Part shown: positions 869 through 21,114 of the stretch, piece by piece | Position numbering within the stretch: position 1 is the stretch's first letter | Layout of the letters: each line of letters begins with the position of its first letter | Source: a virus | Direction: 5' to 3' (one strand) | DNA: 22,848 nucleotides | IMG/VR virus record: IMGVR_UViG_3300044682_000027 | Coordinates: 1-22,848 of that record | Notes under the pieces: model-generated | What the model saw: only the letters and a program-made list of their open reading frames with translations | Told to the model about the DNA's origin: nothing | Databases searched by the model: none | Translations under genes and position numbers: made by a program

Positions 869-2491
869 CTACTGCGGTGGCGGGAGTCTGAGCGGTTGGG
901 CATTGGCTGGAAGCGCCGGCTGAGGCGACTTGCGAAGTTGTTGCATAAGCGCTGCTACCCGCTCACCTTGACTCATCCCCGGATCGGGAGCCATCAGAGG
1001 GATTTTCCCGCCAGCCTGAGCCGGCAGCAGGTTGGTAGTCTGCGGAGGCCGGAAAGTCGGCGCGGGGAACGGTTCTGCCGGTTGCGCTGCCTTGAATGCG
1101 CGGGCAATCATCGAATCCGAGGAAGTGAAATTCTTCATCGCCTGGGATGTGACAATGTTTCCTGCTCCTTCGCCGATGCTGCCAATCCCACCCATGACAT
1201 TGCCTGTGAGGACTTGGCCGGCGCCCTTGACTGCCGTCCCGATTCCCTTCGCTGTTGAGATCTGCTCGGCCAGCGATACAGGATTCTGCCGCATGGCAAC
1301 CAGCTGGCGCCCATAAAGCTCCTTCTGGACATTGGTCAGCGAACCATAGGCCTGCTTGAGCTGCGCTGCTCCTGGCCCGCTCAGGGTGTCTAGCTTGCTA
1401 TAGAGAGCGCTGCGGAGCGCATCTCCTTCGGCGATGGTCGGAGAGATTTGCGGATCATTCTGAGCAACCTGCTGGCCTACCTTGTTCTTTGCGTAATAGG
1501 TATTGAGCTCTGCGTTGGTGGACTGGAGGAAGTCTTCGGCATCCGTGAGGCTCATCGGCTTCCTATACGTATCCGCCGTCTGCTCAATCTTCGCCACTAG
1601 GCTGGGATTCTGGGCCGCCGTACGCTTGTCGATGCTGTTCATCATTGCATCGGCAATCTGGTTTCCGTCGATGGTGGTTCCTGTCGCCGCGGCGGGTCCA
1701 AGCCTCTGCTGGTATTGCTGCCAGATCTGCTTCTTGGCGAGATTGGCTGTCTGAAGCGCATCGTCCACCCCGGTTACTGGATGCCCGAGTTGCACTTCTG
1801 CCGATTTCATCTGTGGAAGTGCCTGCTGAATAGCGTCATTCCACCCGGTGTTGTTCTTTCCTGGCTTGATGGCGCGGGTGAGCAAGTCTTCAGGGGTGCC
1901 ATCTACGAAAGAAGGGAAAACCTTGCTGGCGAGCTGCTTAGCTGCTCCACCCGCTGCGGGGACAATCCCTCCTCCGCCTCCCGAGTCATCCACTGCGCGT
2001 GCTACCGGTCCAGCCTCGCCGCCTCCAGCAAGCGCCAAAGCCGCTTGTGGGATAGCAGCAACAGCCTCGCCGCTGGGATTCTGCACGAAAGGCGTGATTG
2101 CCTTCTGCGCGAGGTCATATTGGTCGCCGACATTACCGAGAGCGGCGCGCCCCGTCTGCGCAATTCCAGCGACGGTGTTCAATGGATGAACGATAGGAGT
2201 CAGGAGGCGAGTTGCGCCCGCGCCTAAATTGGTTCCCAGAGATGACATGAGCTTGCCGATGCTGGAGGTATCAACCGGTACCGTTTGCGCGGCCCTATCA
2301 AATGCCTGATGTGCTGGGTCTGTGCCGGTAAGAACAGAGCCAAGGCTCCATCCAGAGGAAGACGGGGGAGCCGCGATCGGCTTTCCGCTCGAATCCCATT
2401 CGGTGGCAGACAGGGGGGCAGTAGCGGAAGGAGAAACCGGCTGGCCGTTCGCATCCCACTCGACTACGGGCGCGGTTGCTGAAGTTGCCAT
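869..2491 (-). CDS. Putative ejection/internal virion protein (gp16 position)
   Basis: 540 aa, ATG start with AAGGGA upstream. The gene overlaps the preceding one by 28 bp, which suggests translational coupling. The N-terminus carries two copies of a short motif, EWDANGQPVS at about residue 11 and EWDSSGKPIA at about residue 31, then an Ala/Gly/Pro-rich region and a helical, Gln-rich centre. Around residues 420-450 there is a Gly-rich, weakly hydrophobic stretch (GQVLTGNVMGGIGSIG). I recognise no catalytic domain. It is the last of three large, Gln/Ala-rich, low-complexity proteins between the tail accessory genes and the tailspike, exactly where P22 has its ejection genes 7, 20 and 16. I therefore infer a protein delivered with DNA into the cell envelope. 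Sequence similarity to P22 gp16 itself is not visible. Confidence 0.6.
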   Translation of the reverse strand: MATSATAPVVEWDANGQPVSPSATAPLSATEWDSSGKPIAAPPSSSGWSLGSVLTGTDPAHQAFDRAAQTVPVDTSSIGKLMSSLGTNLGAGATRLLTPIVHPLNTVAGIAQTGRAALGNVGDQYDLAQKAITPFVQNPSGEAVAAIPQAALALAGGGEAGPVARAVDDSGGGGGIVPAAGGAAKQLASKVFPSFVDGTPEDLLTRAIKPGKNNTGWNDAIQQALPQMKSAEVQLGHPVTGVDDALQTANLAKKQIWQQYQQRLGPAAATGTTIDGNQIADAMMNSIDKRTAAQNPSLVAKIEQTADTYRKPMSLTDAEDFLQSTNAELNTYYAKNKVGQQVAQNDPQISPTIAEGDALRSALYSKLDTLSGPGAAQLKQAYGSLTNVQKELYGRQLVAMRQNPVSLAEQISTAKGIGTAVKGAGQVLTGNVMGGIGSIGEGAGNIVTSQAMKNFTSSDSMIARAFKAAQPAEPFPAPTFRPPQTTNLLPAQAGGKIPLMAPDPGMSQGERVAALMQQLRKSPQPALPANAQPLRLPPPQ

Positions 2492-3990
2492 GATCCCTTT
2501 CCGCCGTTACCCTGCGGGTTCCATGTCGCATTGGCTGGTACGCCTTGTGGCCTCGCTGGGGGCGCTGCTGCCCCGGGTAGGCCTTTTCCATACATGCGCT
2601 GCATGATGGGGTTGTCACCCATGCGTGACTGCCACTGCGAATTGACCGCATTGCGAACGCCAGCAAAGGACCCGGCTCGAGCATCGGGGCTCATTGCCGC
2701 CTTGAAGAGATTGAAAGCCGCATTCCTGGATGCATCGCTCCCAGTTCCACCGCCCATAACCTTGGAATAGTCGTCTGCTGCTCCTACCGCAGCCGAGGCG
2801 TATTGAGCCAATGGGCCGTTGCCGGTCGCAGCCTTCGCCCAATCCTCTGCGGTATTGAGAGCGGGTAGGGAGTGCTGCGGGATCTTCTTTGCCGCTTCGG
2901 CGAGTTGATCAAGCGTCCCACCGGGAGCCGTGAGGGATTTGATGGACTGGAAAACTGCTGTGTTTGTCGGAGACTTGGCCACATCGTAATAGGCGTCCAT
3001 CTGCTGGGCGTTATATTGGCCATTGCTGAGTTGGTGCGCGCCATTTAAAGTCTGCTGGATAAATTCAGGCGTAGCACCCCGGGCCTTGAGTTCGGATAAG
3101 GTAGCGTCTCCGCTGACCAATAACTTGGCGGCTGCCATCGGATCGCCCTGGGAGAGAGCCTGATGTTGAGCAGCGAGGGACATTTCTCCCGGCATCCGCG
3201 CCGATTCCTCCGCACCGGCCTTCTGTGCGGCTGTCTGGATCGCATTCTGCTGGATTTGCTGAGCACCTGGAGCCGTCCCGAGCGCAATCGATGCCTGAGA
3301 GGGCTCATAGAGCGAGCTTTGGGGATTCATCTGAGCTTGGAGTTTCTGTGCGCCGGTCTGGGCTTCCGTGGCGCGCGCCTGAGCCGTAGTATCCGCTGCG
3401 CCGAGTTCGCGCTGCTTGGGGGATGCCTGAATAGCCGCATCCACGATCTGCTTCAGCGCCTGCGGATTGTCAATCTGCTGGCGTATCTGCTGCAATTGCG
3501 GGGTCTGTGGAAGGGAGTCAAAGAGGCTATGTGCAAGCGCCGGATCATAGCCAGCCGCCTTGACTGCGGCGGCTGCCGAGCCTTCCATATCTGCTTGTTT
3601 GGACTGAAGATCAGCCTTTGCTGTTTGAAGATCAACGCTGCTTTTCTGGAAGTCGACAATATTCTTCATCACAGCGGGGGTTTGATAAGCTGCTGGACCG
3701 CTTGCCAGACCCTGCTGCAGCTTGTTCGGATCGAGCGTTGCTTGCCCGTTCGAATCGGTTGTCATGGCCCCGGCATAGGCTTTATTGAGTGCCTGCCGTG
3801 CCGCCAAATCCTGCTGTTGCTGCTGGATTCCAAGACCGCCCGCCTGTACCTGCTGCTGGAGAGCCTGTTGCTGCAAGGGCTGATTCTGCATCAGGCTCCG
3901 GAGCTGCACAATCTTGGAAGCCTGATCGAGCGCGTTCGGCGGCTGCGCGGGGGGTTGGACAGAGAGCGCTGCGAGAGGAATTGATCCCAT
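2464..3990 (-). CDS. Putative ejection/internal virion protein, Gln-rich coiled coil (gp20 position)
   Basis: 508 aa. The ATG overlaps the stop of the upstream gene by one base (TAATG). The first about 180 residues are very rich in Gln, Ala and Leu (LQQQALQQQVQAGGLGIQQQ) and predict as long helices or coiled coil. The middle contains repeated Ala/Gln helices, and the C-terminus is Pro/Gly/Trp-rich (NATWNPQGNGGKGSWQ). There is no signal peptide and no recognisable enzyme motif. Length (P22 gp20 is about 470 aa) and position in the ejection cassette support an internal virion protein that forms part of the DNA-translocating assembly. The family assignment rests on synteny and composition, not on a recognised domain. 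Confidence 0.6.
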   Translation of the reverse strand: MGSIPLAALSVQPPAQPPNALDQASKIVQLRSLMQNQPLQQQALQQQVQAGGLGIQQQQQDLAARQALNKAYAGAMTTDSNGQATLDPNKLQQGLASGPAAYQTPAVMKNIVDFQKSSVDLQTAKADLQSKQADMEGSAAAAVKAAGYDPALAHSLFDSLPQTPQLQQIRQQIDNPQALKQIVDAAIQASPKQRELGAADTTAQARATEAQTGAQKLQAQMNPQSSLYEPSQASIALGTAPGAQQIQQNAIQTAAQKAGAEESARMPGEMSLAAQHQALSQGDPMAAAKLLVSGDATLSELKARGATPEFIQQTLNGAHQLSNGQYNAQQMDAYYDVAKSPTNTAVFQSIKSLTAPGGTLDQLAEAAKKIPQHSLPALNTAEDWAKAATGNGPLAQYASAAVGAADDYSKVMGGGTGSDASRNAAFNLFKAAMSPDARAGSFAGVRNAVNSQWQSRMGDNPIMQRMYGKGLPGAAAPPARPQGVPANATWNPQGNGGKGSWQLQQPRP

Positions 3991-5199: not shown

Positions 5200-5646
5200 T
5201 CAAATCCTCTTGATGAATGCGAAGTCGCTCAACTTATACCCGAGAGCGGCAAATAGTTTGGAATGGTCACGGTGAATTTTGCATGACAGGTAAACCTTGA
5301 TAGCGCCCAGCCTACGGGCTATTCCTTCGGCGCATCGGATCATCTTGGCTCCCGTACCCGACCTGCTCTCTGGGCTCACGTAATAAGCGTCCACGATGAA
5401 CATGGGAGGCGATGACTTATAGTGCAGGTGTCTGCTGAAGATCGCTAACAGGTAACCGACCATCTTGCCGTCTTCCCGCGCAGTGATCACCTTGAACATG
5501 CCGATGTTTTCCATCGCCTTCATTTTCTCGATGTCAGGGTCGATGTTCAGATCGAGGTCGAGCCCCAGCTCCTGCCAGTGCGCATAGACCAGATCCTTTG
5601 CCTCAGCTGCCCACGTAGCCACCGATTCAAGCTGGAATGTTGTCAT
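5200..5646 (-). CDS. GNAT-fold N-acyltransferase
   Basis: 148 aa, ATG with AGGA about six bases upstream. The gene overlaps the end of the ACP gene by 20 bp. The layout is that of GNAT: strands 2-3 at residues 50-70 (MFKVITAREDGKMVGYLLAIF, hairpin at DG), strand 4 at 83-90 (FIVDAYYV), the acyl-CoA loop PESRSGTGA (92-100), helix 3 (MIRCAEGIARRLG) and a C-terminal LFAALGYKLSDFAFIKRI typical of the family. The pyrophosphate-binding loop is atypical: R-S-G-T-G-A is one residue short of, or lacks the central glycine of, the usual R/Q-x-x-G-x-G/A. T7 gp13, encoded beside internal virion genes, belongs to an acetyltransferase-like family, so a GNAT beside ejection genes has a precedent. Whether this enzyme uses CoA or the neighbouring ACP as acyl donor cannot be told from sequence. 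Confidence 0.85.
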   Translation of the reverse strand: MTTFQLESVATWAAEAKDLVYAHWQELGLDLDLNIDPDIEKMKAMENIGMFKVITAREDGKMVGYLLAIFSRHLHYKSSPPMFIVDAYYVSPESRSGTGAKMIRCAEGIARRLGAIKVYLSCKIHRDHSKLFAALGYKLSDFAFIKRI

Positions 5647-5839: not shown

Positions 5840-7627
5840 TCAATTAAGAACGGTGAAGCGATATGTGCTCGTGTCTGTCGCACCACATAACACGCTAAAT
5901 CCAGTGCCCGCTGTCAGAGTCTTGATGGCGGGCGTTGTTGTTATAACACCGCCAGCGGTTTCTAGTGTTATTAGAATATCCGATCCCACAATAACTGGAG
6001 TTGATGCGACTGTGATTGTGCCTGCTGCTGTGCAAGTGAATGTTCCTCTGCGAGCTGTCGGAGGAGTAAATCCACCAGTGCTGCCAATTAAAATTGTCCC
6101 GCCGCTTGCAATACCGAGTCCGAGAGTTACATCAGCAGCGGTTGCATTGTCGTTGAAAACAATGCTGGCCGACTGATTGGCTGAGGCTGACTTGCCAAGC
6201 TGAATCGCGTTAAACCCGTTCGTAGCCATCGCCGAATTAAAGATCATGAACGGTGTCGTGGATGTGCTGTTCTGGACAAATGTTCCCTGATTGCTCAGTC
6301 CCCCAAAAGTCCCCAAGCCTGTGCATGTAAGGATTCCCGTACCGGAAGACGAGCATCCAGCAGGAAGTCCGCCGCTACTAGAATTTGCCAGCACAAACGC
6401 ATCTGTAGCGAGAGCTGTAGTGTTATCGCCTACGGTCTGTGTAGTTGCTGACGTTCCATTCGGAAGCGTTGGCGTACCGCTTAGATTAGCCGCAGTGCCT
6501 GTGGTATTCACACTGCCCGCAAATGTCTCAGCATTTGATTGTGCAGTAGCAGCCGCACCCGCTGCATCAAACGCCGACGTGGGCTGAAACGCCGCTGTGC
6601 CAAACGAACCGCCGGCAGCACTAGTAAGGGCAGTAAGACTAATAAGCGTACTGTTTGTTGTCGCCGTTATGTTTGATGCTGTCGTTGCACTAGTCGCATT
6701 TCCAGCAAATCCTCCAGGAGCAGTAACTTTTCCCGTGGTATCAATTGTCATAAGAGGATTGCCTACTATACCAAAAGAAGCTGTATTAAGTGAAGATGCT
6801 AAACCTCCTACATTATTGAACACAACCTCAGCGGAGTTGTTGCCAGTCGTCGCTGTGCCCAATCTTATAGCAGTCAGATTGCCAATTGCTAGATTTGCTT
6901 GAAGAGAGGTTATTACAGTAGCTGACACAGATGCAGTACTTGCGGCACCAAAAGGACCAGTCAGGGTGCAACCTGCAAGAAGACAAGCTGTACCGGCGGC
7001 AACGAATGTGGAGCTGGGCTGGAACGCTGCCGTGCCGAATGCGCCCCCGGCTGCTGTGGTCAGAGCGGAAAGCGTCACAAGGGTGGAATTCGTGGTTGCG
7101 GTCACGTTACCGGCCGTATTCGACGTCGCCTGATTCAGGGTTGGCACATCGGCTGCGACGATGGCGCGGAACGTGGGAGCGGAGCTTCCGGTGGCCGGGC
7201 CAGCGAGGAAAGTATTTGCCGACTGGGAATTGAATGAGAATGCCTGCGTTCCGCTCGCGCTGAGGGTGGTCGGCGATGCAGACATGAACGAAGGAAGGCT
7301 CCATGTGATGCTGCCAATTCCGCTCCCGCTGCTCGATCCGGTGAAAGTGCAGGTTGTTCCCGAGCAGGACCCGGCCCCGGTGTTGAAATTGAAAGTAAAT
7401 GCGCCCGTAGTGCCGTTGATGCTGGCCACTCCGGCCCCGCTGCCTCCGGGGATGACATATACCCCGCCGACGCAAGCGAATATGCCGCCTATAGTAGTGC
7501 TTTGCACGAGGGAATTAGGTACAGAGCACGAGGTTCCCGCTGGATTTCCAGTGAATAGATTGATCTGCGGGATGCGCTGCGCGGCGAGCGGCAAGGCCAG
7601 CAGGAACAGGAGAGCCATTTTCTTCAA
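5840..7627 (-). CDS. Tail/head fibre-like repeat protein with Sec signal peptide
   Basis: 595 aa from a TTG start whose TTGA overlaps the TGA of the upstream gene. This start is preferred over a longer frame because it gives a clean signal peptide, MKKMALLFLLALPLAA before Q. The mature protein is Ser/Thr/Gly/Ala/Asn-rich. A block of about 33 residues is duplicated (residues about 174-206 and 319-351, both N-[VI]-T-A-T-T-N-S-T-L ... GTAAFQP), and a second short unit (A-I-x-L-G ... N-x-S-A-x-[VI]-V-F-N) also recurs. The C-terminal about 70 residues (RGTFTCTAAGTITVAS ... TGTGFSVLCGATDTSTYRFTVLN) resemble a beta-domain that I recall at the end of many phage fibre proteins. A trimeric fibre shaft with a C-terminal knob is likely. 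The signal peptide is unexpected for a virion component. Confidence 0.7.
   Translation of the reverse strand: MKKMALLFLLALPLAAQRIPQINLFTGNPAGTSCSVPNSLVQSTTIGGIFACVGGVYVIPGGSGAGVASINGTTGAFTFNFNTGAGSCSGTTCTFTGSSSGSGIGSITWSLPSFMSASPTTLSASGTQAFSFNSQSANTFLAGPATGSSAPTFRAIVAADVPTLNQATSNTAGNVTATTNSTLVTLSALTTAAGGAFGTAAFQPSSTFVAAGTACLLAGCTLTGPFGAASTASVSATVITSLQANLAIGNLTAIRLGTATTGNNSAEVVFNNVGGLASSLNTASFGIVGNPLMTIDTTGKVTAPGGFAGNATSATTASNITATTNSTLISLTALTSAAGGSFGTAAFQPTSAFDAAGAAATAQSNAETFAGSVNTTGTAANLSGTPTLPNGTSATTQTVGDNTTALATDAFVLANSSSGGLPAGCSSSGTGILTCTGLGTFGGLSNQGTFVQNSTSTTPFMIFNSAMATNGFNAIQLGKSASANQSASIVFNDNATAADVTLGLGIASGGTILIGSTGGFTPPTARRGTFTCTAAGTITVASTPVIVGSDILITLETAGGVITTTPAIKTLTAGTGFSVLCGATDTSTYRFTVLN
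6575..7108 (-). repeat. Duplicated ~33-residue unit within the fibre gene
   Basis: Coding copies at 7010-7108 and 6575-6673 encode near-identical blocks starting N-[VI]-TATTNSTL and ending GTAAFQP[ST]S. Spacing between copies is 336 bp. The duplication marks an internal shaft repeat of the fibre protein. Confidence 0.7.
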
Positions 7628-8415
7628 GGGAACACCACCACATCTATCGTGAAAGATCCCCAACTGATGCCGCTCACTACCGGCAACGTTATCTGCGCTC
7701 CAACGGTATTGGCAGCCGTCACTCCTACCAGCAGGTTCTGAATGTTAGCCGCGATGCCCAGATATCCTCCGTTGTTCGACCCTATGGCTGCCATCCCTAC
7801 CGCTGCCCCGGTTACCGTTCCCGACCCCGCGAAGGTGCCGCTTGCTGCCCCGCCAGCATTGATGACCACAGTTCCCTTGAGATAGGCGACCGCTGTCGAA
7901 GTCGCATTGACCGTGACCGCTCCGGTTCCGCCTGCCGGGCTGATCGATACACCGGTTCCAGCAATGATCTGCGTTACGGCCGTGGGAGGCGTTACCGGCT
8001 CCCAGGTCGTGCCGTTGAACTCAAGAATCTGGCCGGCCACCGGTCCCGATGCGGAGAGAGCTGCAAAAGCCAGCTTGCCGCCGGCTATCGGGCTACCCGT
8101 TCCGTCTGCGATGAAATTTATGTTCTGGTTCGTATAAATCCGGCTGAAGTCGATGCCGGGCGGGAGCATGATGCCGGTAAGGTCGAGATTGGCAGTCTTC
8201 TCATTCAGCGCGATAAGCGTGCCAGAAAGCCCTTCGGGAATCCCGGCAACCTCGATTGTCGAGCTAAGCTTACCCTGCTGATTGAATGCGATATTGATCG
8301 TCTGCCCGGCGTATTGGAGCCATCTCCGAGCCGCATCCGTAAGCATTCCGTTCCGGTCCACGAATGGGCTGCGGATGATCGTTGCCGAGAGAACCTGTCC
8401 TGAGGTGTTGCTCAT
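7624..8415 (-). CDS. Fibre/tail-tip structural protein (gp26 position)
   Basis: 263 aa, with an ATGA overlap to the gp10-like gene upstream. The N-terminus contains PFVDRNGMLTDAARRWLQY, a P-x-V-D-x-x-G-x-x-T-x-x-x-x-x-W pattern common in phage tail fibre and baseplate proteins. The rest is beta-rich and Gly/Thr/Ala-rich, including QILEFNGTTWEPVTPP and repeated IIAGTGVSISP-type turns usual in fibre shafts. There is no signal peptide, unlike the next gene. It occupies the slot of the P22 tail needle gp26 but does not look like a long coiled-coil needle, so a different tail closure or adapter for the following fibre is possible. Confidence 0.6.
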   Translation of the reverse strand: MSNTSGQVLSATIIRSPFVDRNGMLTDAARRWLQYAGQTINIAFNQQGKLSSTIEVAGIPEGLSGTLIALNEKTANLDLTGIMLPPGIDFSRIYTNQNINFIADGTGSPIAGGKLAFAALSASGPVAGQILEFNGTTWEPVTPPTAVTQIIAGTGVSISPAGGTGAVTVNATSTAVAYLKGTVVINAGGAASGTFAGSGTVTGAAVGMAAIGSNNGGYLGIAANIQNLLVGVTAANTVGAQITLPVVSGISWGSFTIDVVVFP

Positions 8416-12141: not shown

Positions 12142-13362
12142 TTACGAAGCGATGCGAGTGGCCAATTCGGGGTAAAGCGTGGTCCATCCATACAGGATGT
12201 CCAGGCGGGTGGGGAACCGGTCCGTGTTGATGTCATAGGCGCGCACCAGGCGGATCGAGCAGCCCAGTTGCTTGTCATTGACGCGATCGGCGATATCAAC
12301 TCCTCCAGGCAGAGGAAGATCGGCGCAACCGAAGGCGAAAGCATCCTTGTGGAATGCCAGCCCGCGGGGCGAAGAGGTTCCTGAAGTCCCCTGGATGTTG
12401 ATTGCCGCGCCGTTGGTCGGCGAAGCGGTCACGGTCTGGAAAGGACCGGCCAGGATGATGCCCAGGCCGCCAGGACCAGAGATCGGGATAGTTGCCACGC
12501 CAGCTCCGTTGGCCACAACGTTCTGGGTGACCACGAACTGCCGCAGGGAGCCGGTTGACTGCTTGTTCTGTGGATTGACCGCAAATGTCCCCTGGAAGCT
12601 CACCACGTCGCCCTGGTTGAGGATTGCAGCGTTCGCGGTCCATCCAGAGGTGGTGATGGCAGAGCCGGTCTGGTTGGCGGCATTGATCGTGCCCACAACC
12701 CCGCCGTAAGCGCCAACGGTCTGAACGCGAACGTTCTGATCCATCGACCACTTGAATCCGATGGTTCTACCCATCGTGCCCTCTGAGTACTGCTTTTCGA
12801 TGTCCGAAGCGTCATGGAACAGACCCTTGAGCGCATCGACAATAACCGCCTGCATCGCCGGCGAGACGACCAGAGCGCGGTCCTTGTCCCGGGGCGCCGC
12901 TTCCTCGTCCAATCTCTGTCCGCCCTGAAGGTAGGTCAGCAACTGGTTGGGAACCGTGCCGGGGGTGCCGATTTCGTTGTAGACATTGAGGTATTGGCTC
13001 AAGCCGTCGAAATCGATACCGTTGGCCACATTTGCGATCGCCGGCATGATGAAGCGCTCGGAGAAATCATCGATCGACAGCGCCAGATCCTGAGAGCTGA
13101 AGATGATGTCGACGCCGCGCTGCACATTGAGGGTCAACGGGACGCTGGTTTCGGTCGCATCTTCAAGCTGGAGAGCCTGACCAACGCGGCCTACATATCT
13201 CGGGGGCTTGCGGATGTTGAGCACGGTGCCGATTTTCGCGCCGGCCCGGCCATATTCGTCGTCAAAGTCCCGGCGAACATACTTCGTGAAAGTCAGGTTG
13301 TTCTCAAGAACACGCAAGGCCTCCCGCGTGATCATCGAAATTGTTAATAGGGTGTTTGCCAA
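12142..13362 (-). CDS. Major capsid (coat) protein, P22 gp5 family
   Basis: 406 aa. The start is TTG at 13362, with AGGAG positioned just upstream. The N-terminus MANTLLTISMITREALRVLE followed by NNLTFTKYVRRDFDD, KIGTVLNIRKPPRYVGR, FSSQDLALSIDDFSERFIMPA and NEIGTPGTVP is diagnostic for the P22 coat protein, which has the HK97 fold with an inserted Ig-like domain. P22 coat is 430 aa, so the length fits. It assembles around the scaffold protein encoded just upstream. The central region (about 220-330) is beta-rich and could correspond to the insertion domain. A TTG start on what should be the most abundant virion protein is notable and is compensated by a strong ribosome site. Confidence 0.94.
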   Translation of the reverse strand: MANTLLTISMITREALRVLENNLTFTKYVRRDFDDEYGRAGAKIGTVLNIRKPPRYVGRVGQALQLEDATETSVPLTLNVQRGVDIIFSSQDLALSIDDFSERFIMPAIANVANGIDFDGLSQYLNVYNEIGTPGTVPNQLLTYLQGGQRLDEEAAPRDKDRALVVSPAMQAVIVDALKGLFHDASDIEKQYSEGTMGRTIGFKWSMDQNVRVQTVGAYGGVVGTINAANQTGSAITTSGWTANAAILNQGDVVSFQGTFAVNPQNKQSTGSLRQFVVTQNVVANGAGVATIPISGPGGLGIILAGPFQTVTASPTNGAAINIQGTSGTSSPRGLAFHKDAFAFGCADLPLPGGVDIADRVNDKQLGCSIRLVRAYDINTDRFPTRLDILYGWTTLYPELATRIAS

Positions 13363-13378: not shown

Positions 13379-14239
13379 TCAGCGGGCGGAACGATATCGC
13401 TTGTAATCCTGATACGACATCTGTCCCGGCTCCACATTTGATCCTGTTGCACCGCTGCCCACTGGCCGGATAGGCTGAGGGGCTTGCGATGCGGGTTTGG
13501 GCTTGGGAGTAGAAGGAGCGCTCAGCTTGTCCGAGATGCGCGCAATCGCCGCAATAGACTGCATAGGCCGCAAGTCATTGAGCTTTTTCGCTTCCTCGGT
13601 GTGAGTCGCCAGATAGTAGACGATATCCGCCGAATTCGGTTGTTCTACGATGGCCAAAGCTGCACTCTGAGGAATGGCTACATCCCCAAAAGTCTTTGAA
13701 ACCTCATCGAAGTCATCGTATTTGGCTCTCGCCTCGGAAAGTCGGTTGTTGTGCGCATCCCAAAGTTCGCGGGTTTCCTGCTGCTTGGCTGTTGACTGTT
13801 CGGCTTGGCGTTCCCGATCGCGCTTCCAATCGGCTCGGGCATCGAACCAATCATTAACGTTCTCGAAATCCTCAATCTTTGGCTCGCCGGGTTTCGGTGC
13901 TGGCTTGGCGACGGTTGCCGATGTTATGGCAGGCGTCTTGCTCTTGATGCTATTCAGCTCAGCTTCTAATTCGGCGGCTCTGGCTTCCACTTGCTTGTTT
14001 CTCGCCGTAAGCCTGTCAACGCGCTTCTGCCATCCGCTATGGGATTCGCCTTTCTGTCTCTCCGGTTTCTGCTCCGTGGTAACCGTTTCCGACTCGGTTT
14101 CAGTTTTGCCCTCTGCGGGCTCGGATTCTTCCTTTTCCTCCGGCTTCACAAAGGGCTCGCGCCAGTTTTCGCCGGTAGCGTGCTCAAGTTCCGCTTGGGA
14201 GGATGTCGTTGAGGCGATTGTGATTACTTTTTCGGGCAT
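13379..14239 (-). CDS. Scaffolding protein, P22 gp8-like
   Basis: 286 aa from the ATG at 14239 (GGAGAG upstream). A longer frame to 14326 would overlap the upstream gene and has an unlikely basic leader. The composition is that of a scaffold: a highly acidic Glu/Thr-rich N-terminal third (KPEEKEESEPAEGKTETES), a coiled coil at about 80-115 (RVDRLTARNKQVEARAAELE), further charged helices, a Pro/Ala linker, and a basic, aromatic C-terminal tail SYQDYKRYRSAR. In P22 the basic C-terminal helix-turn-helix binds coat. The gene lies between portal and coat as in P22 (gp8 is about 303 aa). Sequence identity to gp8 itself is not evident, so the call rests on composition and place. Confidence 0.82.
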   Translation of the reverse strand: MPEKVITIASTTSSQAELEHATGENWREPFVKPEEKEESEPAEGKTETESETVTTEQKPERQKGESHSGWQKRVDRLTARNKQVEARAAELEAELNSIKSKTPAITSATVAKPAPKPGEPKIEDFENVNDWFDARADWKRDRERQAEQSTAKQQETRELWDAHNNRLSEARAKYDDFDEVSKTFGDVAIPQSAALAIVEQPNSADIVYYLATHTEEAKKLNDLRPMQSIAAIARISDKLSAPSTPKPKPASQAPQPIRPVGSGATGSNVEPGQMSYQDYKRYRSAR

Positions 14240-14265
14240 GGAATTTGCTCTCCATTGGGATCGTG

Positions 14266-14652
14266 TTACGACTTGCGGGAAATCTTGACAGTGCAATTGA
14301 CCGCGTTTGCGTTGGCCGTGGTGCACTGGATGGCGATAAATGTGCCGATAAACTGGGGGACATCGATGCGCGCAACTCCCGAAGCATTCACGGCTGTCAC
14401 AGCGTCGGTGCCAACTTCGATGTAATTTCCCTGAAGGTCGGTATCAGCCTCCATCACCGTGAAGGAGAACGCTCCGGGCGCCGCGGCGAAAGAAATCTCT
14501 ACCGACAGAGCAGGAACTGTATTCCGCTCCGTCCCGAGAACCTCGAACTGTTGCGACAGGGCCCCCGTCGCCGGATTCTCGGTATTGAATGCCAGTTGCT
14601 GCTGCCCTGGATTGAGGGCGGGTGCTGGCGCAATAGTGTTATATGGCGGCAT
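14266..14652 (-). CDS. Small beta-rich structural protein, hypothetical
   Basis: 128 aa from the ATG at 14652, which has AAGGAG upstream and overlaps the portal stop by 14 bp. A longer frame exists but reads only arginine-rich shadow sequence in front of this ATG. The protein starts MPPYNTIAPAPALNPGQQQLAF and then alternates hydrophobic and polar residues (ALSVEISFAAAPGAFSFTVMEADTD), consistent with a beta-sandwich. It ends in ANAVNCTVKISRKS. The shape suggests a head decoration or minor structural protein. No family is recognised. Confidence 0.72.
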   Translation of the reverse strand: MPPYNTIAPAPALNPGQQQLAFNTENPATGALSQQFEVLGTERNTVPALSVEISFAAAPGAFSFTVMEADTDLQGNYIEVGTDAVTAVNASGVARIDVPQFIGTFIAIQCTTANANAVNCTVKISRKS

Positions 14653-16774
14653 TCGGCTCTCCTTGCGGCTGTGCCGCCTGTTGCTGCATCTGTTGACCGG
14701 CGTCCTGCGATGACTGCGCGGACTGGTTCTGTGCTGCCTGCTGGCCCTGCTGCAGAGCCTGTCCATGCTCCATCTGGCTCATCGCGGTATCGTGAGCCGC
14801 ATTGTGCAGCTCGGACCACACCTGCATCGTCTCCTGAGCCCTGTCCGAGGCGTCCTGAGTCTTGGCATTGATCTGGGCGATGACAATCTTTGCTTCCTGC
14901 TCCATTTGGAACATGCGCAGCTTCCCTTGCTGTTCCATCTGCGCAATCGACATCTTGCCCTGCTGTTCGAGCTGCTTGCTCTGAATCATTTCGTGCTGTT
15001 TCTGCAGCAATGCGGCCTGTTGCTGGTGAAGCTGATTCAATTGCGCAAGCTGGCCTTGAACCTTCTGCAGCTGCTCCTGTGGATCGCTGGTATCCGCCTG
15101 CTGGAGTTGTGGAGGAAGGAGCAGTTTGACCCGGTCGGCGATAGCGTCGGCCCCGGGAATGTCCATATTGCGGATGATGATGTCGGGGGCTCCCTGCTGT
15201 ACGATCGGGACTTCCTTCATCAGCTCCAGCTGGGTGGCAGCGGCTTCTTTTCGCTTTGTCTGATAGCTTGGACCGATATCAACCACCACATCGTAAGTGC
15301 CAACGCCAACATCGAAAACCTTCTTAATCGCTTCATCTTCCAAGGTGTCTCTGGCATCATCTTCCGTCATGCCGGTCGATTTCGAATTGAACACCCCAAC
15401 ATGGTCAATCGTATCGTCAGGCTTGATGATCCGCTGAATCCGGGGCGCATCATACACATAAGGGATCTGATCGATAAGGTACTTCCCGATGTGCGTCTTG
15501 GTGCGCTTCAGGTTGTCAGAATAATTAAGCGTAGAGACATCGCCCTGCTGCTGCTGGGCAAGAATGGCCTTGCCTGACTCATCCGGCGACTGCTGCTTTC
15601 CCAGGGAGGGGTTATACAGCCCTGTTGATGACATCAAATCTTCGCCGGCCTGCTTCACCAGCATCATCATTGCCTGAATCGGCGGCTCAGTGGCGTTTCT
15701 GCTCGGAGGCGGCGCGCCCTGGACAAAATGGTACTTCAGGAATGCCAGTTTCCTTACGTTGGCCTGCTGCCACTGATTCTCGTAACCTTCCACCTGGTCA
15801 TCAGTGACGAGCCAGGGCGCTTTGGTGCCAATACCAACTGCTTCGGTAGCAGCCGAACAGTGGTAGTTGTATTGACGCTGGGCGTCTTTGGCATCCCTCA
15901 CCAATCCTTTATAATGGCGTTTCCCGTCAACGTGCGTTTCCTCTGCATAAACGGGGAAAAGCGGCATGAATTTGCCCTTCAACTCCCGCTCATCAAGGAT
16001 GTCCTTCCCGGTGATCGTCGCCCAGTGCCATGTCCGGGTTATCTTGTCGCGCTTGCCTTTGCGTTTCTCCCGGGTTTCCTCGCACCAGAAGTATTCGGCA
16101 ACCCTGATTGTCTCCTTGCTCATCCAGCCGGGCGGCATATCGCCCATGCTTTGGAAGTCTTCGAGTCCGCAGAGAGCCGAATCGGGATATTCGTCCTCGA
16201 AGTCGTCTTTGGACATATCATCGACGACAAAACAGAACCTGGCATCTTCCCTGTTTGGCCGGCACGCACGCGGATCGCAGTATACGGAGAAGGGGTTGGA
16301 AATCATCTTGATCTTGATTTCCTGATCATCGCTGTCATCGTCCGCGTAATCCGTGACTGCCCTGATCCAGCCCGGGCCTCCGGTCGTTACAGCGAAGTCG
16401 AAGGCTATGTCATCGGCAATCTCTGACTCGGAGTTCTGCTCGATATGCCGGATCATGCCCTGAAAGACTTCTGCCGTCTCTTTATCGGCTCCCGAGCCTA
16501 CCGGGCTGACCTGAATAGCGGGGCGCTGCTGCCTCTGCTCATTGCAGACCTGCCGGATGAACTTTCCCAGCTGATTGAGAGTCAAGCAGGGCGTTCCATC
16601 GGCTGCGCGCTGCGTCTGAATCTCTGCCGGCCACTGCTCGGAAAGCTTGGCGAACTTCAGGTCATCGAGCGCCATGCGGCGATTTTCGGCCTCAGCATCT
16701 GCGCTGAGCTTGAATCTCGCATGAGCCTTGGCGAGGAACGACCTTGTATCCCTTGGTTCTTTCTCAGCAGGCAT
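14639..16774 (-). CDS. Portal protein, P22 gp1 family
   Basis: 711 aa (P22 gp1 is 725). The N-terminus RFKLSADAEAENRRMALDDLKFAKLSEQWP, the segment GKFIRQVCNEQRQQRPAIQVSP, FDFAVTTGGPGWIRAVTDY and NPFSVYCDPRACRPNREDARFCFV are hallmarks of the P22-type portal. The C-terminal about 140 residues are Gln-rich heptad-like helices (QLNQLHQQQAALLQKQHEMIQ), matching the long helical barrel of P22 portal. It forms the dodecameric DNA channel at one capsid vertex. The ATG overlaps the end of the GroES-like gene by 11 bp, so the two are likely translated together. Confidence 0.93.
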   Translation of the reverse strand: MPAEKEPRDTRSFLAKAHARFKLSADAEAENRRMALDDLKFAKLSEQWPAEIQTQRAADGTPCLTLNQLGKFIRQVCNEQRQQRPAIQVSPVGSGADKETAEVFQGMIRHIEQNSESEIADDIAFDFAVTTGGPGWIRAVTDYADDDSDDQEIKIKMISNPFSVYCDPRACRPNREDARFCFVVDDMSKDDFEDEYPDSALCGLEDFQSMGDMPPGWMSKETIRVAEYFWCEETREKRKGKRDKITRTWHWATITGKDILDERELKGKFMPLFPVYAEETHVDGKRHYKGLVRDAKDAQRQYNYHCSAATEAVGIGTKAPWLVTDDQVEGYENQWQQANVRKLAFLKYHFVQGAPPPSRNATEPPIQAMMMLVKQAGEDLMSSTGLYNPSLGKQQSPDESGKAILAQQQQGDVSTLNYSDNLKRTKTHIGKYLIDQIPYVYDAPRIQRIIKPDDTIDHVGVFNSKSTGMTEDDARDTLEDEAIKKVFDVGVGTYDVVVDIGPSYQTKRKEAAATQLELMKEVPIVQQGAPDIIIRNMDIPGADAIADRVKLLLPPQLQQADTSDPQEQLQKVQGQLAQLNQLHQQQAALLQKQHEMIQSKQLEQQGKMSIAQMEQQGKLRMFQMEQEAKIVIAQINAKTQDASDRAQETMQVWSELHNAAHDTAMSQMEHGQALQQGQQAAQNQSAQSSQDAGQQMQQQAAQPQGEPNAAI

Positions 16775-17045
16775 TCACTTTGCCGAATATATCGCCTTGG
16801 CGGATGAGCGTATACTCGCCGCACTCTGCATCGTTCAGACTGAACCGCACCACTTCGCCGGGGACCACGTCCATCGGGTAGCGGCCACCCTTATCGCGGC
16901 GCCTGCCGGGGCCGACAGATACCACCAGGCCAACGTGAGAGCGGTTCTCTGCCACCATCGGGATATGGATCAGATCGGATACAAGTTCGGGGATGAGCTT
17001 CACTACGATGCCGTCATGCAATGGCTGGAATGCTGACAGGTCCAC
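16764..17045 (-). CDS. GroES-like co-chaperonin (phage-encoded)
   Basis: 93 aa from a GTG at 17045 that overlaps the preceding TAG (TAGTG) and has GGAGGGG just upstream. An in-frame longer frame reaches 17318 but only reads through neighbouring genes. The sequence follows GroES end to end: FQPLHDGIVVK for the first strand, a mobile-loop region ending IHIPMVAENRSHVG, then LVVSVGPGRRRDKGG, YPMDVVPGEVVRF, and EYTLIRQGDIFGKV like the ESDIL end of GroES (97 aa). The glycine pair normally before the hydrophobic tripeptide is replaced by SDL, while the I-x-I-P that contacts GroEL is kept. By analogy with T4 gp31 it would cap host GroEL, with the adjacent portal or coat as clients. Confidence 0.88.
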   Translation of the reverse strand: MDLSAFQPLHDGIVVKLIPELVSDLIHIPMVAENRSHVGLVVSVGPGRRRDKGGRYPMDVVPGEVVRFSLNDAECGEYTLIRQGDIFGKVNAC

Positions 17046-17263
17046 TATCCCCTCCGGTGCTTCATCAAGTCGCCAAGCATCACGGCCTTTTCCTTGATGC
17101 GCTTGGTGAATGACGAGTTGGAGCCGTGATGCATCGCTGCCAGGGCAACAGCCTCGCCGCGGCGCTTGGCCGTATCCATCGGGTATGAACCGGTACCGGA
17201 CTTTCCGGGCACGCCGCGCTCGGACTTGGGAACGGCCTTCTTTGCTGCCTCTGACATCGCCAT
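17045..17263 (-). CDS. Small basic hypothetical protein
   Basis: 72 aa. The ATG at 17263 overlaps the stop of the upstream gene (TAATG); a second Met two codons on is possible. The peptide is Lys/Arg-rich: EAAKKAVPKSERGVPG, then SYPMDTAKRRGEAVALAAMHHG and TKRIKEKAVMLGDLMKHRRG. The middle resembles the short P-x-x-x-x-x-A-R-x-A-x-A ... I-x-x-K-A unit that I recall in small phage head-associated proteins, but no family can be named with confidence. Its stop shares a base with the GroES-like start, and its final codons form that gene's ribosome-binding site. Confidence 0.72.
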   Translation of the reverse strand: MAMSEAAKKAVPKSERGVPGKSGTGSYPMDTAKRRGEAVALAAMHHGSNSSFTKRIKEKAVMLGDLMKHRRG

Positions 17264-17688
17264 TAGCTGAAGGCCACTCCGATAGCGCCGAGAACGCCCC
17301 ACTTCCCCTGATATGCACGGAAGAGCACGCTGGCTCCCTTGTTGCCGTTGAATGTGGCAGTATTGACGCCTGCCGATCCGGTTATCAGATTGCCGGTAGA
17401 GGTGACGGTGTGCGCATGGCCACCGACGTCCTGAAACAAGCAGGTAATACCGTCATCGGTACCCGCGACTGGCGCGCCAAGCGTGATCGCATCGACACCC
17501 GCCGAAGCAATGATGAAGTTTCCGCCGCGGACCTGATTGATGCCGAAGCTCGATCCGTTCGGAGAGGGAATCGCATCCGCCGCGCCTGTCAAGATGTTCA
17601 AAGGACCTTGCTGCGCATCGGTGTCGATAATGTCCTGCACCGCACCGCCAGTGTCGAAAGTTCCTGTCCTGTTGCCTACTGCTCTCAT
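17263..17688 (-). CDS. Beta-rich putative virion protein
   Basis: 141 aa, ATG with a strong AAGGAGATCGT leader. Gly, Ala, Thr and Asn are abundant. Notable stretches are GGNFIIASAGVDAITLGAPV, VGGHAHTVTSTGN and TATFNGNKGASVLFRAYQGK, which alternate like a beta-sandwich or a short fibre head. There is no signal peptide and no cysteine pair motif. The strong ribosome site and position in the head block suggest an abundant capsid-associated protein. An unusual inverted-repeat region lies just upstream of its ribosome site. Family not recognised. Confidence 0.72.
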   Translation of the reverse strand: MRAVGNRTGTFDTGGAVQDIIDTDAQQGPLNILTGAADAIPSPNGSSFGINQVRGGNFIIASAGVDAITLGAPVAGTDDGITCLFQDVGGHAHTVTSTGNLITGSAGVNTATFNGNKGASVLFRAYQGKWGVLGAIGVAFS

Positions 17689-19025: not shown

Positions 19026-20306
19026 CTAACTCATCCAACTCTGTGATGCGGTACCGTATCGGGTATCCGCTGGCTTTTCCTTACGCGCCGGCTCTTTGAT
19101 GCCGACCGCCATTGTCCTCAGGGCATCCGCGGGATGGGATGCGTCGTCATGTAGTGGTCCCGATCTCGGCACGCCCAGCTGTGTCGCCGGGCCCCACTGG
19201 TATCGCCTTAGGTAGCTCAGTCCATCTGCGCACAGCTTCTTATCGAAGTAGAGCGTGGGGAACAAGGTGCGGACTGCATTGATCCCATCAGTGACGCTCA
19301 GCTGCTGGTTGCACCGCGTCTTGAATCCCTTGGCGCGCATGATCTCTTCAATGCTCTTGCCGGTGCCAAGGCTCTTTGCGGCGCCGTCCCAGGGAAGAAA
19401 GCATGTGCCCAGCGTATAACCCCAACTCTGAACCTCTTGCAGGTAGAAGTCGATGGCCTGGTGATCGAACTCGAAGTATCGAAGCACCTTGATTTCAAAC
19501 GGTGTACGCTGTGCAGCCCAAATGGAAACGCGATCAGCAAACCCAAGATCCCAGAATGTGTCAACCGGCCTCATCGGATCGTAGGGAACATCCCGTATCC
19601 GTCCTTCGCGCTCCGCGAGCTGAATCTCCTGCTTGTAGATCGCGCCTTCTACCGTTGACCGTGTGGCGCCCTCGTAGACGTGATGGAAGGTGTCGGGATC
19701 GCGTTCTTTGAGGGTTTCAATCTTCTGGCTGGACTCAGGGCTAAGCCAGTTATTGTCCAGGTAGGATATTTCGCATACGAAAGCGCCGGGTGGCGGATCA
19801 ACGATGAAATCTTGATAGACCGCATCCGTTTCCAGGTCCGGATTCAGCGAAAACCAGATTTCCGATCCGGGCTTGCGGATAGTTGGAAGAAGGATAGTCA
19901 AGCTGCGACGGCTTACAACCGATGCTTCCTCTATCCAGCATATGTCTATGGCTTCATAGGACTTTAAGCTGCTTACCGTCTGCTTGCGGAGGCCTGCAAA
20001 CACAAACTCGGTGCCGTTAATGCCTCGTATCTCCGACTGCAGAACCTTGTAGAAGTCATCCAGGCCGAGCCGGGCTATCTGATCACTCAGGAGCTGGTGA
20101 ACTGACTCCCTGATGGAATCCATCGTCTCGCGCCCACAGAGGATGCGTAGAGTCTTCTGCGCGCCAAGGATGAGCAATGCCTGAGCGATCGACCAAGACT
20201 TGCAGCCATCGCGGCCGCCGTAAAGCACTTTATACGGGTGCGGCTCAAAGAGCGGTGCAAGCTTCTCCGGGATCTTGATCTTAACCGAAGGGATTGCGGT
20301 GCTCAT
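19026..20306 (-). CDS. Terminase large subunit
   Basis: 426 aa, ATG in an ATGA overlap with the small subunit. ATPase domain: phosphate loop YGGRDGCKS (residues 29-37), Walker B IDICWIEEA (120-128) with the catalytic Glu pair, and a coupling segment with WFSLNPD. Nuclease domain: FWDLGFADRVSIW (about residue 250), then a central LPWDGAAKS, and HDDASHPADALR near the end carrying the last metal-binding Asp. The protein is of the terminase-3 type. It powers DNA packaging through the portal and cuts the concatemer. The phosphate loop has Cys where Gly or Ala is usual. Confidence 0.95.
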   Translation of the reverse strand: MSTAIPSVKIKIPEKLAPLFEPHPYKVLYGGRDGCKSWSIAQALLILGAQKTLRILCGRETMDSIRESVHQLLSDQIARLGLDDFYKVLQSEIRGINGTEFVFAGLRKQTVSSLKSYEAIDICWIEEASVVSRRSLTILLPTIRKPGSEIWFSLNPDLETDAVYQDFIVDPPPGAFVCEISYLDNNWLSPESSQKIETLKERDPDTFHHVYEGATRSTVEGAIYKQEIQLAEREGRIRDVPYDPMRPVDTFWDLGFADRVSIWAAQRTPFEIKVLRYFEFDHQAIDFYLQEVQSWGYTLGTCFLPWDGAAKSLGTGKSIEEIMRAKGFKTRCNQQLSVTDGINAVRTLFPTLYFDKKLCADGLSYLRRYQWGPATQLGVPRSGPLHDDASHPADALRTMAVGIKEPARKEKPADTRYGTASQSWMS

Positions 20307-20824
20307 CGTCCATTTGGTGGCTCAGGACGCACAAATTCGACGGTAATCTCTGCCTTAATCGGGCCGCCGTCAGCGCCGGTAAGCTCGGTCTGAAGCTTGT
20401 CGCCATACTTCTTGGGATTCCACTTTGCGAGCAGCTTGAGGCGTGTCTCGATGCGCAGCTTGCGATGCTCAATCATATCGGCGGTCTTGCGCTCAACCAT
20501 GTAAGCAGGCTGGCCCTCGTCATCGCACGCCTGAATTCCTTCAACCATCACCGGCTTAACTGTAACTATTTCACCGACTTCGGTATTGTCGGCAATATCA
20601 AGGCATTCCTGAAGAATCTGTGCCTCGCCTAAATCCCGCGCGCGTGCGAAGCGGGTAGACTCTAGCTTATCTTCCGTCTTCGCATCCGCTTCAAGCCAGT
20701 CGTAAACCAGGGAATAGGAAGGTTTGCCCTCCTGACGGCAATAGGCTCTGAGTGTTCTGCCTGACTCCAGCCAAGCATGTACCTCAGGAAGGAATTTATC
20801 TGGATGGAAACGAACCTCGCTCAC
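20303..20824 (-). CDS. Terminase small subunit, Sf6/P22-like
   Basis: 173 aa from a GTG at 20824 in a GTGA overlap with the upstream stop. A GTG four codons earlier is possible but lies within that gene. The N-terminal part contains a helix-turn-helix-like segment (PEVHAWLESGRTLRAYCRQE, then YSLVYDWLEAD). The centre reads QECLDIADNTEV, and the C-terminus has HRKLRIETRLKLLAKWNPKKYGDK, the R-K-x-x-x-x-x-L-x-P-K-K-Y-G-D motif of this family. It recognises the packaging site and hands DNA to the large subunit. Confidence 0.92.
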   Translation of the reverse strand: MSEVRFHPDKFLPEVHAWLESGRTLRAYCRQEGKPSYSLVYDWLEADAKTEDKLESTRFARARDLGEAQILQECLDIADNTEVGEIVTVKPVMVEGIQACDDEGQPAYMVERKTADMIEHRKLRIETRLKLLAKWNPKKYGDKLQTELTGADGGPIKAEITVEFVRPEPPNGR

Positions 20825-21114
20825 TGTCCCACACACAGCGCATTGGCTTGCATAATCAGCTCATAGCCGGCGCGGTTAGCTGCTTGTCCTGAGATTGGGG
20901 GCTGATACTTGATGTTCTTCAATTCAGCCCTGGGGAGAGCTTCGCGAAGACTTGCCTGCTCATTGCGGGCTTCTATGGATTCTTTCAGGGTGAGATCGCG
21001 GATGGATTCGCCTTCGATCACCCAGGCGCAGGCACAGGCGTCGATCGCCTTGAGGGCCTGGGAATACTTGAGCCGGATATTTTTGGAGATATTGAGAATG
21101 CGGTGGCTTTTCAT
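20821..21114 (-). CDS. Hypothetical protein upstream of terminase
   Basis: 97 aa from the ATG at 21114. A longer frame from a TTG at 21192 has an unlikely leader. No strong ribosome site is seen before the ATG. The protein is helical and charged: NISKNIRLKYSQALKAIDACACAWVIEGES, then LKESIEARNEQASLREALPR, and it ends in NALCVGQ. It shares a GTGA overlap with the terminase small subunit, so the genes are co-translated. No family recognised. Confidence 0.65.
   Translation of the reverse strand: MKSHRILNISKNIRLKYSQALKAIDACACAWVIEGESIRDLTLKESIEARNEQASLREALPRAELKNIKYQPPISGQAANRAGYELIMQANALCVGQ

Follow-up and report, generated by a model that had tools for sequence, protein, structure and literature searches.

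A divergent GroES-like co-chaperonin is encoded in the packaging and head block of the virus analysed here, an IMG/VR record of 22,848 bases that is itself a fragment and whose whole length is hereafter called the window. Phage-encoded GroES was already known, and relatives of this gene had already been annotated as GroES; what looks new is that the gene is nearly universal, and fixed in place, in this family of viruses with a P22-type coat. We propose, with a probability of roughly 0.7, that the product acts as a co-chaperonin in the manner of gp31, capping host GroEL for the folding of head proteins, most likely the coat.

Identity and start site of the gene

The gene lies on the minus strand (16764..17045, stop codon included), reads from a GTG at 17045 and encodes a product of 93 amino acids. 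This product matched the Pfam Cpn10 model PF00166 with 41.2 bits (cut-off 21.1, E 1.8e-10), residues 6-89 being aligned with positions 2-92 of the 93 in the profile, which bears out the statement of a preliminary description of this DNA that it aligns with GroES along its whole length. It also matched PHROG 3188, 'co-chaperonin GroES', and a PDB sequence search supported the same identity. The co-chaperone GroES models of NCBIfam, which are equivalog or subfamily models, gave at best 40.6 bits against cut-offs of 96-136, and scores so far under these cut-offs indicate a divergent branch rather than an ordinary bacterial GroES. A chance match to GroES was ruled out by the score, the fold and the presence of the gene across the family, and a host fragment within the contig was ruled out by the terminase, portal, scaffold and coat genes that flank the ORF. 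A plus-strand frame across the same bases was dropped for a stop near its end.

A Shine-Dalgarno-like GGAGGGG (17049..17055, minus strand) precedes the GTG, which shares bases with the TAG stop of the ORF before it (17045-17302) in the junction TAGTG, just as the preliminary description had read it. A longer frame is also present (16764..17318), which starts with GTG, encodes 184 amino acids and still scores as Cpn10; its additional residues, about 90 by the earlier estimate and 91 by count, had been called spurious. In the closest relative, IMGVR_UViG_3300037849_000163 (L002), whose GroES is 92% identical by tblastn and 94% by alignment, the conserved Shine-Dalgarno sequence precedes TAG ATG, with an in-frame stop immediately ahead of the start codon, and the open frame comprises only 93 amino acids. 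Another relative, L004, whose GroES is 58% identical over 91 amino acids, likewise has its ATG start at the corresponding site. Since the frame is closed before the ATG in L002, and L004 has an ATG there too, the longer frame of the window is not conserved and the shorter start holds. A single base, an A that is present in L002 and missing from the window, explains the long frame as well as the start at GTG.

Gene neighbourhood

The genes around GroES, all on the minus strand, follow the order terminase small subunit, terminase large subunit, several small ORFs, GroES, portal, scaffold, coat, head-tail connector and tail/ejection genes. The terminase subunits are encoded at 20303..20836 (small, Sf6-like; PF20901, E 5.9e-22; PHROG 1482, E 5.2e-26) and 19026..20306 (large; PF04466, E 3.7e-41). 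Downstream of GroES, a P22-like head module comprises, in this order, the portal protein (14639..16774; 711 amino acids, 80 kDa; PF16510, E 1.3e-160), the scaffolding protein (13379..14326; PHROG 8865, E 4e-41) and the P22-type coat protein (12142..13362; 406 amino acids, 43.4 kDa; PF11651, E 1.6e-33), the last of which is our candidate client. The assignment of a GroES-like gene to the capsid module was thus sound.

The GroES stop overlaps the ATG of the portal gene (16774), the shared stretch being 11 nt long in the window as well as in L002. Translational coupling of GroES and portal is likely in the window, judging from this arrangement; the preliminary description had called the gene coupled to the portal. 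The overlap is 1 nt in L004, 4 nt in phage DSL-LC05 and, with starts as predicted, 8 nt in L026 and 17 nt in L028, and the genes abut in L025. Coupling is not universal in the clade of the window, since five other members have a gap of about 120 to 480 nt between GroES and the predicted portal start.

The small ORF preceding GroES (17045..17302, minus strand; 85 amino acids from a GTG) matched no Pfam or PHROG family and is dissimilar to the ORF at the same place in L004. The next protein upstream (17263-17688, minus strand; 141 amino acids), also without a family match, has a 35% identical homologue similarly placed in L004 (5002-5412), and is therefore a conserved member of the block. Elsewhere on the minus strand of the window, an acetyltransferase-like protein (5200-5646; PHROG 1249) lies amid the tail/ejection genes, and three long ORFs downstream of the head genes (869-2491, 2464-3990 and 5840-7663; 540, 508 and 607 amino acids) matched neither Pfam nor PHROG.

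Predicted structure

Fold prediction had been suggested earlier as a check on the assignment, and it returned a GroES fold. The AlphaFold model, built from an alignment of 36 homologues, reached a pLDDT of 80.7 and a pTM of 0.72; prediction from the single sequence gave a pLDDT of 39.5. The best PDB matches to the model (Foldseek, VIA-align) were all GroES, with Z scores of 9-11 (1p3h, 11.0; 3nx6, 10.4; 5opx, 10.4; 1aon, 9.4). T4 gp31 (1g31) scored 6.8, and oxidoreductases with a GroES-like domain ranked under GroES, at Z about 7 and below. The low-confidence stretch of the model, residues 21-30, is the mobile loop, as expected. The protein of the window is, on this model, predicted to have the GroES beta-barrel fold.

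Distribution among relatives

The search by portal turned up at least 580 relatives. Related records were picked by portal similarity only and then searched for Cpn10, which was found above the cut-off of Pfam's own model in 39 of 50. A family HMM was made from those hits and run on the portal loci, some of which had served to train it; 48 loci contained a GroES ORF in the flank covered, in every case on the portal strand and no more than about 4 kb ahead of the portal. Where at least 4 kb of sequence was available upstream of the portal, the gene was present in 35 of 37 viral loci, or in 28 of 30 after removal of portals more than 95% identical. A P22-type coat was found in 16 of 18 related records.

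Several control sets contained no Cpn10: 42 viral contigs drawn by random 15-mer (1.05 Mb, against 1.28 Mb for the portal set), 19 T7-like records, T7 itself being likewise without one, and 12 other P22-type records, including P22, Sf6, APSE-1, BA3, X14, PAE2 and phiAX1. The same Pfam search recovered T4 through gp31 (29.9 bits), evidencing its ability to detect diverged phage Cpn10. No Cpn60 (PF00118) was found in any of the 24 related records searched, a set to which the window record did not belong. Acinetobacter phage MD-2021a also gave hits, but these were discarded as a host groESL within a bacterial stretch of the record. A portal search of genome contigs for the host returned only three metagenome bins, with diverged portals. 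In the Xanthomonas jumbo phage XbC2 (L012:3998-4285), an annotated GroES adjoins a structural protein and lies about 4 kb away from the large subunit of the terminase, and related jumbo phages are listed with a similar pairing.

Evolutionary history

The portal tree places the window, with strong support, in a clade of 12 whose GroES genes immediately precede the portal. A member of this clade, L030, is labelled differently only because its contig ends between both genes; read as a circle, it would match the layout of the clade. In a sister clade of 29, GroES lies 1.6-4 kb upstream, beyond the terminase where this is annotated. P22, Sf6 and the groups VvAW1/BA3/X14 and P26218/EBPR1 are without GroES. 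Two P22-portal viruses placed next to the clade of the window, L033 and L055, have no detectable Cpn10 in the whole record, which represents either losses of GroES or its replacement by an unrecognised protein. Presence and absence on the portal tree require at least three changes.

In the GroES tree, the copies from the window's clade are monophyletic (99/95) and those from the sister clade nearly so (89/82); the viral copies as a whole may or may not go back to one origin (support 60/87). GroES and portal distances were correlated, with a Mantel r of 0.78 overall, 0.53 within the window's clade and 0.77 within the sister clade. Substitution rates between the window and L002 (dN/dS about 0.1; 0.047/0.407) indicate that the gene is under purifying selection. 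Such a ratio, together with the portal-correlated distances, argues that GroES has been kept and inherited with the head/packaging block.

Mobile loop and roof hairpin

The GroES of the window was aligned with homologues of cellular (28) and other viral (39) origin. Its mobile loop reads PELV-SDL-IHIP-MVAENRS, with a core, SDLIHIP, at residues 23-29 (16959..16979, minus strand) that includes the hydrophobic tripeptide I-H-I. Set against the cellular GroES proteins, the window copy has two residues fewer in the loop and lacks about five near the position of Tyr71, and its roof hairpin is of full length. Comparison with gp31 and host GroES had been proposed earlier, and the loop proved shorter than the longer one of gp31 as well. 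A tripeptide [IL]-x-[VILM] is found in 39 of the 40 viral homologues, the exception being L088 with T at the third place, and it is retained against a mean column identity of only 26%. The preliminary description was right that the loop keeps I-x-I-P and has SDL for the glycine pair. Most sister-clade copies have S, then D/S/T/E/N, then I/V/L in place of the glycines, and from these alignments the loss is mostly a family trait rather than a peculiarity of the window gene.

The roof hairpin, flanked by the motifs VGP and VGD, is absent from L062 (1925-2182) and most other sister-clade loci (L041, L088, L099, L096, L059, L036, L054, L047 and L035). Its loss in that clade, as in T4 gp31, may be convergent.

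Proposed function

In the reading that we favour, GroES would be expressed late from the packaging/head block, translationally coupled to the portal, and would assemble into a heptameric lid whose mobile loop contacts the apical domains of host GroEL through I-H-I. The resulting cage would enclose head proteins of the phage, the 43 kDa P22-type coat being the most likely, so that hundreds of coat copies could fold independently of host GroES. The partner would be host GroEL because no Cpn60 was found in the 24 related records. The usual capacity of the GroEL/GroES cage is about 60 kDa, a limit that the portal (80 kDa) exceeds, which makes the coat (43.4 kDa) the better candidate client. The argument made for gp31, a client that is too big, does not apply, since a 43 kDa coat would fit the ordinary cage. 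Nor does a P22-type head by itself demand a Cpn10, as P22, Sf6 and ten other P22-type records are without one, and the absence of a detectable Cpn10 from L033 and L055 also counts against this reading.

A stronger version, which we regard as unlikely although worth stating, would make the GroES-fold protein a dedicated part of the head and packaging machinery by now, either an obligate coat-specific lid, the sister clade having independently lost the roof hairpin like gp31, or a true portal/packaging component. Unlikely, too, is a general booster of folding capacity during infection, an auxiliary gene serving many host and phage clients and not dedicated to the coat or head. Unrelated phages do carry GroES without head linkage, such as the Manatee Spring siphovirus L013, where it lies among early genes, and Cpn10 is a core gene of HTVC023P-type pelagiphages (PMC9599517); however, the gene studied here is fixed in the packaging/head block in all 48 loci found, always on the portal strand and within about 4 kb, and its divergence tracks that of the portal. 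We consider it quite improbable that the protein competes with or modulates host GroES, binding host GroEL so as to redirect or block folding in the host or a defence that depends on the chaperonin, and contributes nothing positive to head folding: a mobile loop without the glycine pair and two residues shorter than that of host GroES could change the affinity for GroEL, but the gene lies in the packaging/head block and not in an early host-takeover region, and the intact barrel and roof hairpin of the window copy are those expected of a working lid. Least probable is reuse of the fold as a structural or packaging part, for head completion or as a portal or terminase accessory, which would suit the overlap with the portal gene, the position between terminase and portal and the existence of GroES-fold barrels in other proteins such as medium-chain oxidoreductases, but leaves the GroEL-contact tripeptide conserved in an otherwise unneeded loop despite the low column identity and is at odds with the sister clade, whose gene lies further upstream, beyond the terminase where annotated.

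Comparison with known systems

A literature search of partial coverage returned no description of GroES in P22-type viruses, nor of its near-universality or fixed location. Two phages carry an annotated gene of this kind: DSL-LC05 (OR003940), where 'Co-chaperonin GroES' lies upstream of a P22-type portal with a 4-nt overlap, and Xanthomonas phage PBR31 (MT119766), where GroES lies upstream of a P22-type portal, before the terminase. Both copies are far diverged from that of the window, and the one of DSL-LC05 has no roof hairpin; the paper on DSL-LC05 (PMC10611076) makes no mention of GroES or chaperonin. The HTVC023P-type pelagiphages, likened here by description only, are a different group of short-tailed phages with GroES among their core genes (PMC9599517).

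The protein of the window resembles bacterial GroES (1aon, 3nx6, 1p3h) in fold, length, roof hairpin and the I-x-I-P core of the mobile loop, and differs from it in having no glycine pair, a loop two residues shorter and about five residues fewer near Tyr71. Its closest functional parallel would be T4 gp31, which replaces GroES and is essential for the folding of gp23 (PMC6318259, PMC9576892), and the preliminary description had pointed out that T4 carries gp31 for its own coat. Both are phage-encoded Cpn10s, gp31 working with host GroEL as the window protein would; they are recognised by the same Pfam model (29.9 bits for gp31) and matched by predicted fold (Z 6.8), with 12% identity on structural alignment. 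They differ in that the mobile loop of gp31 is longer and its roof loops are missing (PMC6318259), whereas in the window protein the loop is short and the roof hairpin retained, and in that the gp31 gene, unlike the GroES gene of the window, is not adjacent to the head genes.

The statement that P22 coat folding depends on GroEL/GroES proved too strong, as these chaperonins interact more with temperature-sensitive mutant coat than with the wild type (reviewed in PMC2267774). P22 serves as a model for coat folding with host GroEL/GroES, yet many of its environmental relatives carry a GroES of their own. The many short and diverse variants, with or without roof hairpin or loop glycines, are material for work on GroEL affinity. 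The need for a private co-chaperonin has so far been studied mainly in T4 gp31, and viruses that share a coat fold but differ in having a lid of their own offer a natural comparison for what makes a capsid protein need one.
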